Source: Luteimicrobium subarcticum (GTDB lineage: Bacteria > Actinomycetota > Actinomycetes > Actinomycetales > Cellulomonadaceae). From it: a stretch of DNA of 64,000 nt. The notes below the pieces were generated by a model. That model saw only the letters and a list, made by a program, of their open reading frames with translations, had not been told where the DNA came from and did not search any database. Numbering within the stretch: the first letter of the stretch is position 1; each line of letters starts with the position of its first letter. Positions 7,457 through 35,273 of this stretch are shown piece after piece. The stretch covers positions 62,001-126,000 of the forward strand of contig NZ_PGTZ01000006.1 of assembly GCF_002798015.1 (NCBI RefSeq), given 5' to 3'. The translations under genes and the position numbers were made by a program.

Positions 7457-8716
7457 TCAGGATAGGTCTCCCCCGCGCGTCGTGGTAGTCGAGCGGCCCA
7501 CGGTGGACGCGCGACGCACCGCCGAGGCCCCGAAGCGTGCCCGCACGGCGTCCAGGGCCTCCTCTGCAGCCCGGGCCGTCACGGTGACCTCGGCGAAGGC
7601 GTCGTCGAGCGTGGGCTGGAGCGCGGCCGCCGCCCGGGGCTCCAGCCCCTCGACGCGCACCCCGACGAGGCGCACCGGGCGCCCACCGAGCTCGGCGGCC
7701 GCCAGCAGCTCGCGGGCGACCACCGCGATCTCGTGGGCCGTGTCGGCGGGCGACGCGAGCGACCGCGACCGGGTGAAGGTCCGGAAGTCGTCGGTGCGGA
7801 CCTTCAGGCTCACGACGCGCCCCACCAGCCCGCCGGAGCGCAGACGCGCGGCGCACCGGTCGGCGAGCTCGAGCACCGTCAGGCCCACGCGGGACCGGTC
7901 GCGCTCATCCACCTCGTACGTGCGCTCGGCACCCACGGACCGCTCGGTGCGCTCGGTCTCGACCGCTCGGCCGTCGCGACCCCAGGCGAGGTCGTGCAGG
8001 TGCCGGCCGTGCGCCGCCCCGACCACGGACACGAGCCGTGCGAGGTCGGTCTCGGCGAGCTGGGCCACGGTGTCGATGCCGAGCGCCCGCAGCCGTTCCG
8101 CGGTGCGCTCCCCCACGCCCCACAGAGCGCCGACCGGCAGGGCGTGCAGGAACGGCACGGTCGCGTCGTGCGGGACGAGGAGCATGCCGTCCGGCTTGGC
8201 GTGCGTCGACGCGAGCTTGGCGACGTGCTTGGTCGACGCGATCCCGACCGAGCACGTGATGCCCTGCTCCCGCTGCACCCGGTCGCGCAGGCGGGCGCCG
8301 ATCTCGGCCGGGCCGCCGAGCCGGCGACGCGCGCCCGAGACGTCGAGGAACGCCTCGTCGACGCTCACCTGCTCGACGACCGGTGTCACCTCACGGAAGA
8401 GGTCCATGACGGCCCGCGACACGTCCGTGTACGCGGCGCGTCCTGGCGGCACGACCACCGCCTGGGGGCACAGCGCCCGAGCGCGCGCCATGGGCATCGC
8501 GGACCGGACCCCGAACGCGCGTGCCTCGTACGTCGCCGACAGCACGACGGACCGCCCGGAACCGCCGACGATGACGGGCAGCCCGCGCAGCTCCGGGCGC
8601 CGCACGAGCTCGACCGACGCGAAGAACGCGTCCATGTCGACGTGGAGCACGTGGCACCCCGTGTCGTCGGTGCCCCAGGAGCGGCGGACCTCGGCAGAAC
8701 GAGGAGCGTTGCTCAT
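7457..8716 (-). CDS. dinB: DNA polymerase IV (Y family)
   Basis: A translesion polymerase that copies past damaged bases with low fidelity. The 419-residue product has the palm motifs DMDAFFASVE (Asp27, Asp29) and SVDEAFLDVSG, helix-hairpin-helix region GVGERTAERLRALGI and the little-finger domain with SLKVRTDDFRTFTRSRSL. There is no obvious beta-clamp motif that I can point to with confidence in the tail. It begins seven bases after the HEPN gene, without a good ribosome site of its own, which suggests coupling. The operon lies behind a perfect SOS box at 9184-9199. Confidence 0.96.
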   Translation of the reverse strand: MSNAPRSAEVRRSWGTDDTGCHVLHVDMDAFFASVELVRRPELRGLPVIVGGSGRSVVLSATYEARAFGVRSAMPMARARALCPQAVVVPPGRAAYTDVSRAVMDLFREVTPVVEQVSVDEAFLDVSGARRRLGGPAEIGARLRDRVQREQGITCSVGIASTKHVAKLASTHAKPDGMLLVPHDATVPFLHALPVGALWGVGERTAERLRALGIDTVAQLAETDLARLVSVVGAAHGRHLHDLAWGRDGRAVETERTERSVGAERTYEVDERDRSRVGLTVLELADRCAARLRSGGLVGRVVSLKVRTDDFRTFTRSRSLASPADTAHEIAVVARELLAAAELGGRPVRLVGVRVEGLEPRAAAALQPTLDDAFAEVTVTARAAEEALDAVRARFGASAVRRASTVGRSTTTTRGGDLS

Positions 8717-8723
8717 GCGCGGC

Positions 8724-9161
8724 TCACGACGCCTGCCGGGTCACGTGCACCCCGGCGAACGACGCGGCCGGGTCGACCAGCACCGCCACCTCGTCGCGGA
8801 AGTCCTCGGCGCACCGGACGAGCTCGTCGGCACGCGCCGGGTCGACCGCGTCGAAGCGTCCCGCGTCGACCGCGGCGCGCAGCCGGGCGCCGTCGGCGAA
8901 GTAGCTCGACCACGCCGCGAGGCCCGGCTCGGCGCGCTCGACCAGCACCCAGACCGACGCCGTCCGCCCGCGCGGTGCGGCGACGTTGCGCAGCGCCACG
9001 AGGGCCGCCGCCGCACGCAGAGCGGCGAGGTGGGCGTGCACGAAGCGCTCCGCGGGCTCCCCCGCCGCGTGGGCGGCGGCGAGCTCGGCATCGGCCCGCG
9101 CCAGGAGCAGCGTCACCGCCCGGGGCACCGCGACCGGGCCGGGAACCGTGCTGCGCACCAT
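8724..9161 (-). CDS. SAV_6107-like HEPN protein
   Basis: A 145-residue all-helical protein. After residue 30 it carries the pattern EPAERFVHAHLAALRAAAAL, typical of the SAV_6107 HEPN family, including Arg39-x4-His44. An Arg-x(4-6)-His pair is the RNase signature of active HEPN toxins, but whether this family cuts RNA is unknown. The ATG at 9161 was chosen over upstream starts because GGAGGTGG sits five bases before it and an upstream start would run through the SOS box. It is the first gene of the HEPN-dinB-DUF3040 unit and should be induced by DNA damage. Confidence 0.85.
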   Translation of the reverse strand: MVRSTVPGPVAVPRAVTLLLARADAELAAAHAAGEPAERFVHAHLAALRAAAALVALRNVAAPRGRTASVWVLVERAEPGLAAWSSYFADGARLRAAVDAGRFDAVDPARADELVRCAEDFRDEVAVLVDPAASFAGVHVTRQAS

Positions 9162-9183: not shown

Positions 9184-9199
9184 TCGAACACCTGTTCGA
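9184..9199. promoter_or_regulatory. LexA-binding SOS box, perfect palindrome
   Basis: TCGAACACCTGTTCGA matches the actinobacterial/Gram-positive SOS consensus TCGAAC-N4-GTTCGA at every position. It lies 22 bases upstream of the HEPN gene start and about 40 bases before the divergent spermidine-synthase-like gene. LexA is encoded 8 kb away in this window. Repression of the HEPN-dinB operon is the likely role; control of the divergent gene is possible. Confidence 0.92.
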
Positions 9200-16351: not shown

Positions 16352-16837
16352 TCAGTCGTCCGCGGTCTCCGTGACCGGCTCGCCGCGCCGCTCGCGGTCG
16401 CCCCGCAGCGACTCGATCGCGGACTCGAAGTCCTCGAGCGACTCGAACGCCTGGTACACGGACGCGTACCGCAGGTACGCCACCTCGTCGAGCTCGCGCA
16501 ACGGGCCGAGGATCGCCAGGCCGATGTCATAGGCGTCGAGCTCAGCGGTGCCCGACGCCCGCAGGGTCTCCTCGACCCGCTGCGCCAGCAGTGCGAGGTC
16601 GTCCCCCGACACCGGGCGGCCCTGGCACGCCTTGCGCACGCCCGCCACGACCTTGTCCCGGCTGAAAGGCTCTGTCGCCCCTGAACGCTTCACGACCGAG
16701 AGGCTCGCCGTCTCGATCGTCGTGAACCGCCGGCCGCACTCGGGGCACTGACGACGGCGCCTGATGGACGCACCGTCGTCGGACGTCCGTGAGTCCACCA
16801 CCCGCGAGTCGGGGTGGCGGCAGAACGGGCAGTGCAT
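16352..16837 (-). CDS. nrdR: Transcriptional repressor NrdR
   Basis: NrdR represses ribonucleotide reductase genes, sensing ATP/dATP. The 161-residue protein has the N-terminal zinc ribbon MHCPFC...CPECGRRF with four Cys, then the ATP-cone domain ([16 protein letters not shown] onward). The ATG at 16837 gives the standard start [17 protein letters not shown]; a longer reading to 16873 lacks family similarity. Placement beside lexA and the LysM gene is conserved in actinobacteria. No ribonucleotide reductase gene is in the window. Confidence 0.97.
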
Positions 16838-16949
16838 GACGGCTCCTCGGAAGTGGCGCGGGGACGCCCTCAACCTAGGTGCGCGTCAAGGCCGCTCGCA
16901 ACCAGGCGCACCGCCTCGTGCGGACGCGACCGCGCGCCCGTGCACGCGA

Positions 16950-17354
16950 TCAGCCGCGGTGGGCGGGGACCAGGAGCACCTGCCCGACGGTGAGGTCACC
17001 GGACTCGAGGCGGTTGATCCGCATGAGCTCGGCGACGACGTCGCGAGGGTCCTCGCCCGGGCGGGCGACCGATCGCGCGACGGCCCAGAGCGTGTCACCC
17101 GGGACGACCGCGTGACGCACCACCTCGATGCCCGCGTGCGGACGCTCGGCGGTCGCGGTGCTCGTGACCCAGGCGCCACCGAGCCCGAGGGCGAGCACGA
17201 GAGCGAACAGCACGCCCCGGCCGCGGCGCGTGAGGCGCAGCTCCGGCGCGACGCCTCGGGCACCCGGTCGCCGCACCGCGCAGGCGGACTGCGCGGCGGG
17301 CTGTGCGATGAGCGACGGACGAGCCGGGTGGTGCTGCAGTGCCAGGGTGCTCAT
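16950..17354 (-). CDS. SOS-linked LysM membrane protein, likely cell division suppressor
   Basis: A 134-residue protein: about 45 cytoplasmic residues, one membrane helix (about 48-66), then an external LysM domain (HAVVPGDTLWAVAR to VGQVLLVPAH), which binds peptidoglycan. The ATG at 17354 has GGGAGAT upstream; a longer reading would begin inside an SOS box. It is divergent from lexA with SOS boxes between. Bacillus YneA and Mycobacterium ChiZ (Rv2719c) have the same layout and position and delay division during DNA damage. The same role here is inference from architecture and context. Confidence 0.85.
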   Translation of the reverse strand: MSTLALQHHPARPSLIAQPAAQSACAVRRPGARGVAPELRLTRRGRGVLFALVLALGLGGAWVTSTATAERPHAGIEVVRHAVVPGDTLWAVARSVARPGEDPRDVVAELMRINRLESGDLTVGQVLLVPAHRG

Positions 17355-17387
17355 GATGATCTCCCAGTTGGCTCGGGCGGACCGAAG

Positions 17388-17403
17388 TCGAACAGGTGTT
17401 CGT
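17388..17403. promoter_or_regulatory. SOS box 1 of the lexA/LysM intergenic region
   Basis: TCGAACAGGTGTTCGT matches TCGAAC-N4-GTTCGA except for the last base. It lies 34 bases upstream of the LysM gene start and probably controls that gene. Confidence 0.85.
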
Positions 17404-17418
17404 CGAACGTCTGTACGA
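17403..17418. promoter_or_regulatory. SOS box 2 of the lexA/LysM intergenic region
   Basis: TCGAACGTCTGTACGA has one mismatch (GTACGA for GTTCGA). It shares one base with box 1, so two LexA dimers would sit side by side. Confidence 0.75.
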
Positions 17419-17455
17419 TTTCTAGCACGAGGCGCCGACACGCGTCCAGCATCTG

Positions 17456-17471
17456 TCGAACAGATGTTTGA
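17456..17471. promoter_or_regulatory. SOS box 3, lexA proximal
   Basis: TCGAACAGATGTTTGA has one mismatch (GTTTGA). It lies 70 bases before the lexA start and 38 bases from box 2. It is the likely autoregulatory site of lexA. Confidence 0.82.
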
Positions 17472-17540
17472 AACAGCACGTCAGGTGGCCTACGGTGGAC
17501 CCAGCGACGGCGGGCGTCGCGGCGGACGGGGAGGCACTCG

Positions 17541-18284
17541 ATGGGCACCGGCACGGACGGCACGCAGAGCGGCAGCGGGAGCGACGGGCTGGCCACGGTG
17601 AGCCGGCTCGGGGACGCCCCCGTCGGCACCGACGGGCTCACCACGCGACAGCGCCTCGTGCTCGAGACGGTGCGTGCGTCGGTCGAGGAGCGCGGGTACC
17701 CGCCGAGCATGCGCGAGATCGGCGAGGCGGTCGGCCTGACGAGCCCGTCCAGCGTGAAGCACCAGCTCACCGCGCTCGAACGCAAGGGCTACCTGCGACG
17801 CGACCCCAACCGTCCCCGGGCCATCGAGGTCGTCCAGCCCGACGACTCCCGGCGCACCGGCGTCCTCGGCGCCCCCCTGCCGGGCGGCGACGACGCCGAG
17901 AGGGCGGGCGCGCCCGCCTACGTCCCGGTCGTGGGCCGCATCGCGGCGGGCGGCCCGATCCTCGCCGAGCAGGTCGTGGAGGACGTCTTCCCGCTCCCCC
18001 GCCAGCTCGTCGGCGAGGGCGAGCTCTTCCTGCTCAAGGTGGTCGGCGACTCGATGATCGACGCGGCGATCTGCGACGGCGACTGGGTCGTCGTCCGCCG
18101 TCAGCCGGTCGCCGAGAACGGTGAGATCGTCGCCGCCATGATCGACGGCGAGGCCACCGTCAAGACCTTCAAGCGGTCGGACGGCCACGTCTGGCTCATG
18201 CCGCACAACCCTGCGTACACCCCGATCCCCGGGGACGACTCGCAGGTGCTCGGCAGGGTCGTGAGCGTCCTGCGCAGCATCTGA
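17541..18284 (+). CDS. lexA: SOS repressor LexA
   Basis: LexA represses the SOS regulon and cleaves itself when RecA filaments form on damaged DNA. The 247-residue protein has an N-terminal winged helix ([19 protein letters not shown], about residues 54-72), the cleavage site Ala136-Gly137 in RIAAGGPI, catalytic Ser171 in VVGDSMID and Lys208 in GEATVKTF. The first 33 residues are a Gly/Ser-rich extension. ATG 17541 has GGGGAGG at good spacing. Three SOS boxes upstream indicate autoregulation. Confidence 0.98.
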
Positions 18285-34437: not shown

Positions 34438-34453
34438 CCGAACAGGTGTTCGA
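34438..34453. promoter_or_regulatory. SOS box upstream of recA
   Basis: CCGAACAGGTGTTCGA has one mismatch to TCGAAC-N4-GTTCGA (first base). It lies 150 bases from the recA start, in line with a recA promoter with a long leader, and 28 bases beyond the end of the MBL-fold gene. Confidence 0.85.
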
Positions 34454-34481: not shown

Positions 34482-35273
34482 TCAGGCCGCCGCGACCTCG
34501 TCCGACCCGCCCGGGCGCAGCACGAGCACCCGTGTCGTCGGGGCCACGCGTGCCACCTCGACCGCGAACAGCTCGCCCGGTCGATCCATCCAGCCGGGGG
34601 GCAGGTAGCGGCCGCCCGGCGCGTGCAGCGTCCCCCAGTGGACGGGCACCGCGGCCCGGGCGCCCACCAGCGCGCACAGCTCCGCGGCCTGCAGCGGGCC
34701 CATGTGGCCGCCGGACAGGCGCGGTCCCCAGCCCGAGACGGGCACCAGCACCACGTCCGGCGGCCCTCCCGCGAGCTCTGGCACCGCGGCGAGGCCGCCG
34801 AACAGCTCGGTGTCCCCGACCGCCCAGACGGTCAGCGCCCCTCTGCCGTCGGCGCCCGCGAACCGGACCAGGTGCCCGTTCGCCGCGTTCGGGCGGTGCG
34901 GCATCGGCCGGTGACCGTGCACCGCCGGCGTCAGCCGCACCGAGACGCCCGGGGCCACGTCGAACCACTCGTCCGGCCTGAGCCCCGTGCCGCCCGCGAT
35001 GCCCCGCGACCGCAGCCACCGTGCGTTCGCCGGAGCCGTGAGCACCGGGACGTCGCCGAGCAGCCGCAACGACGACAGCTCCGCGTGGTCGTGGTGCAGG
35101 TGCGACACGACCGCGGCAGCCGCCCCCTGCCACACCCGCTCCGGGCGCGGCCCCCGGCGCCGCAGGACGCCGGCGTGCCGGCCGAGCAACGGGTCCGTCA
35201 CGACCCGCACGCCGGCCCGTTCGAGCACGACGGTCGAGTGGCCCAGCCACGTCATGCGGACGGCGTCCGTCAC
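34482..35273 (-). CDS. Metallo-beta-lactamase-fold hydrolase (UlaG-like)
   Basis: A 263-residue protein with the metal site [12 protein letters not shown], preceded by [10 protein letters not shown] and with a later His in [18 protein letters not shown] and [13 protein letters not shown] follow. UlaG/NAPE-PLD-like members hydrolyse varied esters or lactones; the substrate is unknown. It starts at GTG 35273, overlapping the stop of the membrane phosphodiesterase (GTGA), so the two genes form a pair. Confidence 0.87.

Follow-up and report, generated by a model that had tools for sequence, protein, structure and literature searches.

Division inhibitors linked to lexA have been described (PMC3989709; PMC6851548), and the gene analysed here resembles two of them, ChiZ of Mycobacterium tuberculosis and YneA of Bacillus subtilis. 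In M. tuberculosis, lexA uses one of the four known boxes of the arrangement while the other three, together with a PafBC motif, serve the divergent rv2719c operon (PMC8151990; the sentence concerned prints Rv2019c to Rv2017c, the supplement legend rv2719c). The need for the LysM domain that both proteins carry is disputed: in YneA, whose helix binds TM7 of FtsW, LysM is essential to stop septal synthesis (PMC13396833), whereas it is dispensable for filamentation by mycobacterial ChiZ, for which the N-terminal region and the helix suffice (PMC7355643). Models of ChiZ on FtsW have been presented and are called not of high confidence (PMC13396833), and the hydrolase activity once claimed for ChiZ (PMC3989709) has been reported as a likely false positive (PMC7355643). 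Against this background the locus described below is itself expected; the useful part is the comparative picture, which indicates which boxes belong to which gene.

A LysM membrane protein gene with three LexA boxes

In the window, the 64,000-nucleotide stretch of Luteimicrobium subarcticum DNA analysed here, lexA (17541..18284, plus strand; TIGR00498, 258 bits) is divergent from a gene of 134 residues at 16950..17354 on the minus strand. We read its start as the ATG at 17354, with a predicted ribosome-binding site GGGAG (17361..17365, minus) six bases upstream; an alternative GTG start at 17441, giving 163 residues, was rejected, being upstream of the predicted transcription start and within the promoter. 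The next gene in the same direction is nrdR (16352..16840, minus), assigned by profile and domain matches. The protein has an Arg-rich N-terminus, one predicted membrane helix at about residues 48-66 (17157..17213, minus; our own reading of the sequence) and a C-terminal LysM domain that contains GDTLW (residues 82-130; 16965..17111, minus; Pfam E 6e-9) and whose sequence matches in the PDB are 4uz2 and 4xcm, from cell-wall-binding endopeptidase-related proteins. A Pfam search found no other domain in it. The motif LRLTRRGR stands just before the helix (residues 39-46; 17217..17240, minus) and, by the positive-inside rule, would sit on the cytoplasmic side with LysM outside. The protein thus has the single helix followed by LysM, presumably extracellular, and the position beside lexA that mark the ChiZ/YneA kind.

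Using the pattern TCGAAC-N4-GTTCGA and counting mismatches, we found three LexA boxes with one mismatch each, all at positions where relatives also have boxes: box 1 (TCGAACAGGTGTTCGT, 17388..17403); box 2 (TCGAACGTCTGTACGA, 17403..17418), which covers the predicted transcription start of the LysM gene (about 17412); and box 3 (TCGAACAGATGTTTGA, 17456..17471), whose TTGA lies within the predicted lexA -35. The Pfam, TIGR00498 and box searches confirm what an initial annotation had proposed from the letters alone, a LysM membrane protein gene divergent from lexA with three SOS boxes; the intergenic region is indeed 186 bases long (17355-17540), and the two boxes near the LysM gene do overlap by one base, at 17403. 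That annotation took the overlap as a sign of tight or cooperative repression, and we retain the claim as tight or multi-site repression, which is consistent with the box geometry conserved among relatives (see below).

Boxes with at most one mismatch occur at only 37 places in the 3.63-Mb genome, against 7 for the reversed pattern, so three of them within 84 bases are not a chance cluster (about 1e-5 per genome by our own estimate). The 15-bp pair pattern CGAACN4GTTCGTCGAACN4GTNCG matched only the window site at 0-2 mismatches and two others at three, with one match for the control, and a 16-bp pair pattern had no match in the genome. When two mismatches are allowed, boxes are found at 487 places against 144 for the control, and single weak matches mean little. 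Even at the zero-mismatch boxes elsewhere in the genome (L002-L005), the ORFs tested included no clear SOS gene, and L002 adjoins genes for ribosomal proteins. A single box is therefore weak evidence.

Further boxes lie in the window. A perfect one (9184-9199) stands ahead of genes for a SAV_6107-like HEPN protein and a DinB-type polymerase IV (7457-8716 and 8724-9161, minus, the start at 9161 being our own reading), likely an SOS mutagenesis operon. Another, with one mismatch (34438-34453), is perhaps there by chance, since it is placed at the 3' end of a gene for a metallo-beta-lactamase-fold hydrolase (34482-35273, minus).

The protein and its relatives

Our comparison covered 151 lexA loci: four named contigs, picked up by way of the protein (Georgenia, a Nocardioidaceae MAG and two Actinomycetota MAGs), 70 loci of the window's family, window included, from 80 family genomes with lexA, and 77 others from 155 genomes of the class with lexA. 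Of 134 loci, 126 have the protein by an iterated HMM, as do 11 of 17 added loci; with two LysM-less matches removed (L139 and L158), the LysM gene is present in 135 of the 151, not always adjacent to lexA (L007), and a GDTL-type LysM-like core is found in all of the first 126 proteins but that of L139. A LysM gene beside lexA is common among relatives, and the window is an ordinary case. By our reading, a LysM-less single-helix protein replaces the LysM protein in five loci. Eleven loci have neither, two of them (L127 and L159) on short contigs where absence is uncertain. Family f8 is taken as mycobacterial because its LexA is near-identical over 111 residues to chain 6a2q, which we take to be M. 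tuberculosis LexA. Family f21, presumed to be Streptomyces, has neither the gene nor a box pair in any of its four loci, and a Streptomyces study states that clear homologues of the SOS division inhibitors known so far are lacking there (PMC9380542).

The 126 relatives are diverse (median identity 35% over 2000 sampled pairs), yet most share the stretch before the helix. The pattern [LVIM][TNS]xRG[RWKQ] or a near form occurs in 118 of these 126 proteins (69/70 in the family, 46/52 in the rest of the class, 3/4 on named contigs), a figure that may under-represent motif-less proteins, which the HMM, itself including the motif, would tend to miss; the stricter [LVIM][TNS][RK]RGR occurs in 79. A hydrophobic stretch follows the motif in 116 of the relatives, a combination absent from all 4868 other ORFs of these loci. 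By column, R44, G45 and R46 are conserved at 94-96% and T42 at 94%, against 100% for A93 and 98-99% for G86, N114, G124 and P130 in LysM, so that the few residues next to the membrane are nearly level in conservation with the core of LysM. Within that core, D87-T88 of GDTLW presumably match D46 and T47 of YneA, which are needed for peptidoglycan binding (PMC13396833).

Two other explanations of the motif were rejected. It is no twin-arginine signal, as the first arginine of the pair varies (another residue in 36 of 118), and no DNA element, as the 79 exact motifs have 74 distinct DNA spellings. A degenerate DNA pattern for LTRRGR matched the genome four times, one match being the window gene, against nine (3 and 6) for the reversed control; of the other three matches, two give an LTRRGR frame, neither with a helix after it, and the third gives no such frame.

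The motif is missing from all seven LysM proteins of family f8 (L091, L092, L146-L149 and L151), so docking may differ in these mycobacterial-type proteins. It is also missing in L009, L050 (which has PTRRGR instead), L084, L128, L129 and L130. Conversely, in one genus of family f20 the relatives (L139 and L158) retain LTxRGR with the helix but end just after it, lacking LysM; the L158 protein still matches the window protein (E 2e-5). They lie at -1160 to -800 (L139) and -1040 to -680 (L158) from the lexA anchor, both SOS-box-driven as judged by sequence. A second set of LysM-less proteins with one helix is found in family f8 (L093, L094 and L150); that of L093 can be aligned to the L147 protein across the juxtamembrane part (E 9e-5), and the group may correspond to Corynebacterium DivS. 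The presence of the motif in 118 of 126 proteins and the existence of relatives without LysM suggest that motif and helix form the functional core, and the two together make the disputed need for LysM directly testable.

An alternative reading makes the protein an envelope factor induced by SOS, such as a LysM scaffold or a partner of a hydrolase, with a role in strengthening or remodelling peptidoglycan during damage and none in inhibiting division. LysM indeed predicts peptidoglycan binding only, and the hydrolase activity once claimed for ChiZ (PMC3989709) would fit; but that claim is a likely false positive (PMC7355643), the window protein has no other Pfam domain, LysM-less versions exist, and the proteins that resemble it in topology and locus inhibit division (PMC7355643; PMC6851548), which makes an envelope factor improbable compared with an inhibitor of division.

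Box geometry and promoters across lexA loci

A tandem box pair is present in 117 of the 151 loci, and its spacing is narrow: the best pair is at 15 bp in 68 loci and at 16 bp in 46, which makes 114 of the 117; two loci have 17 bp and one has 18 bp. The preference differs by group, with 75 pairs at 15 bp versus 14 at 16 bp in the window's family and 29 at 16 bp versus 3 at 15 bp in the rest of the class; five mycobacterial-type loci (L091, L146, L147, L148 and L151) have a spacing of 22-23 bp, and three consecutive boxes occur in 17 loci. In the controls, where the true box gave 282 matches, a shifted box form gave 70 matches and 7 pairs, and three other patterns gave 2, 11 and 17 matches and no pairs. 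By its distribution over gene content, the predicted pair goes with the LysM gene: it is found in 112 of 135 LysM loci (23 have no called pair), in 3 of 5 LysM-less loci and in 2 of 11 with neither gene.

L104 and L152 have tandem LexA boxes ahead of nrdR and no LysM gene that we could find, an arrangement that may have brought the ribonucleotide-reductase regulator under SOS control. They invite the reading that nrdR is the key target of the operon, the boxes coupling damage to ribonucleotide-reductase control and the LysM gene being incidental, the more so as an nrdR start motif in the same orientation occurs in at least 118 of the 151 loci, in the short stretches examined. We regard this as very unlikely, since a pair is absent from nine of the eleven loci with neither gene (two of the nine are on short contigs) and nrdR has, by our reading, a possible promoter of its own.

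Of the 117 pair-bearing loci, 82 have boxes 2 and 3 at a distance of 52-54 bp. Among loci with a tandem pair, box distances include none at 57-61 bp and nine at 62-65 bp; we make no claim of strict helical phasing, as single-box promoters do occur at 57-60 bp (L097, L118-L120 and L128). In six loci the lexA box lies more than 85 bp from box 2, and four of these (L007, L089, L121 and the box-rich L122) have a box of their own (two mismatches or fewer) whose distance from box 2 is 51-53 bp; L081 and L147 have none. At L007, in the Nocardioidaceae MAG, the LysM gene lies some 1.5 kb away from lexA and has a full operator of three boxes, the third of them a perfect GTTCGA palindrome; lexA there keeps a GTTTGA box. 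Because four of the six loci with a distant lexA box keep their own third box, the third box is probably part of the LysM operator and not of lexA's alone, and we read the GTTTGA spelling as the price of its common use with lexA. The third site probably helps silence the division inhibitor.

The notion that the boxes chiefly serve lexA autoregulation, with the LysM gene a bystander under a weak promoter, can draw on the position of box 3 within the predicted lexA promoter, but it is hardly tenable, since the L007 pair stays with the distant LysM gene, only 2 of 11 lexA loci without the gene or a LysM-less relative have a pair, and M. tuberculosis lexA uses one box, the other three serving the divergent operon (PMC8151990).

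The assignment of the boxes to two promoters rests on 74 lexA loci aligned on box 3. The box is spelled GTTTGA in 73 of the 74 and GTTTGG in one, in a search that used the GTTTGA spelling and is biased towards it. Its TTGA is the beginning of the predicted lexA -35 (TTGAAA, 17468..17473, plus), followed after 17 bases by the predicted -10 (TACGGT, 17491..17496, plus), whose first T, A and last T are kept in 99-100% of these loci. In the opposite direction, the LysM-side promoter reads TGCTAGAAA, with a predicted -10 TAGAAA (17419..17424, minus; our own reading) after TGC and just ahead of box 2. From this spacing, boxes 2 and 1 would cover the LysM transcription start and the first transcribed bases. 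In many family members, though not in the window, GTCGAGACACGC recurs between the promoters, in the 12 bases that precede box 3; this stretch may contain a LysM -35 (TCGACA, read on the opposite strand).

Ten bases upstream of the predicted LysM -10 stands a PafBC-like element, TGTCGG (17435..17440, minus). The mycobacterial PafBC motif is TGTCGG-N10-TANNNT (PMC8151990); the window has TGTCGG-N10-TA, and its TAGAAA departs from TANNNT at the last base. Among 128 LysM-side promoters (134 loci less five without a called box 2 and one without box 3), TGTCRG-N10-TA occurs in 40 (15/70 in the family, 24/55 in the rest of the class, 1/3 on named contigs), the exact motif being absent from 88; at the other spacings between 4 and 18 the hexamer gives 12 matches in all, and five control hexamers at N10 gave none in these promoters. 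The source genome encodes a tandem pair of WYL-domain proteins, which we infer to be PafBC, and, on another contig, two Pup-ligase family genes. In the window, and in roughly one in three of the promoters examined (40/128), two damage pathways may converge on a single promoter.

A proposed mechanism and comparison with known systems

Taken together, these findings make it likely that the window gene encodes an actinobacterial ChiZ-like SOS division inhibitor, held off by LexA on three boxes, freed by LexA cleavage with probable PafBC activation, and pausing septation after docking, the effect on division following by homology. In the undamaged cell, LexA would occupy boxes 1 and 2 over the start and the first transcribed bases of the LysM gene, and box 3 over the lexA -35, about 50 bp upstream of the LysM start, keeping the gene tightly off. 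Upon damage, RecA-triggered LexA cleavage would free the boxes, and PafBC probably also activates the LysM promoter via TGTCGG-N10-TA. The protein would insert with its Arg-rich N-terminus inside and LysM outside, LRLTRRGR and the helix would dock, by analogy, on FtsW, FtsI or FtsQ of the machinery for septal peptidoglycan, and LysM would grip new glycan so that septation pauses until LexA returns. LexA-controlled expression is predicted from the three conserved boxes at the LysM promoter.

More tentatively, and with rather less than even confidence, we propose a generalization: that in most actinobacteria the working part of the SOS brake is LxLTxRGR plus the helix, a conserved divisome-docking element absent from mycobacterial ChiZ; that LysM is an accessory missing in at least two lineages; and that the promoter is a three-site LexA module, a 15/16-bp pair with a third box about five helical turns away, tied to this gene and only incidentally common with lexA. 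Neither the spacing rule nor the LTRRGR motif is described in the titles and abstracts of the open-licence literature that we searched (LexA + LysM + SOS box; actinobacterial tandem boxes; LTRRGR).

Homology to ChiZ runs through the helix and LysM when the L091 protein of family f8 stands in for Rv2719c (35% over 84 residues, E 1e-7, in one comparison). The mycobacterial-type f8 proteins differ from the window protein in lacking LRLTRRGR (7/7), and their box pairs, at 22-23 bp in five loci, differ from the 15 bp of window boxes 1 and 2. In M. tuberculosis nrdR lies downstream of the ChiZ gene, as it does in the window. The box sequence of colicin operators differs from that of the window boxes. 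Those operators likewise have a pair of overlapping LexA boxes, by which a harmful product is kept off, but they control an unrelated gene, and the account of them in PMC2994835 on which we draw makes no mention of a shared third box.

DivS of Corynebacterium glutamicum and SosA of Staphylococcus aureus are also single-helix SOS division inhibitors beside lexA, but they have no LysM (PMC6851548), and L093, L094, L150, L139 and L158 are nearer that state than the window protein is. YneA shares one helix followed by an extracellular LysM, SOS induction and a place beside lexA (PMC13396833; PMC6851548), but its residues 5-14 are already in the helix region (PMC13396833), compared with about 46 residues before the helix here. 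Because the protein scores 32 bits on the NCBIfam YneA equivalog NF010723, below the cut-off of 60, it is by this measure not YneA proper. ChiZ matches it in its N-terminal charged region, single helix and C-terminal LysM, with 64 residues before the helix instead of about 46 (PMC7355643); its gene is divergent from lexA, which has one box, and the LysM operon has a PafBC motif and LexA boxes of its own, though three besides lexA's instead of the two in the window (PMC8151990). The initial annotation had likened the gene to ChiZ and YneA for its topology, its locus and its LexA boxes, which homology and the published M. tuberculosis data (PMC8151990) support, and its division brake is a prediction from homology. 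That annotation had missed the PafBC-like element, the sign that box 3 serves the LysM gene too, the juxtamembrane motif and the commonness of the arrangement. The arrangement is already published for that species, and the window gene adds a member to the ChiZ/YneA kind.
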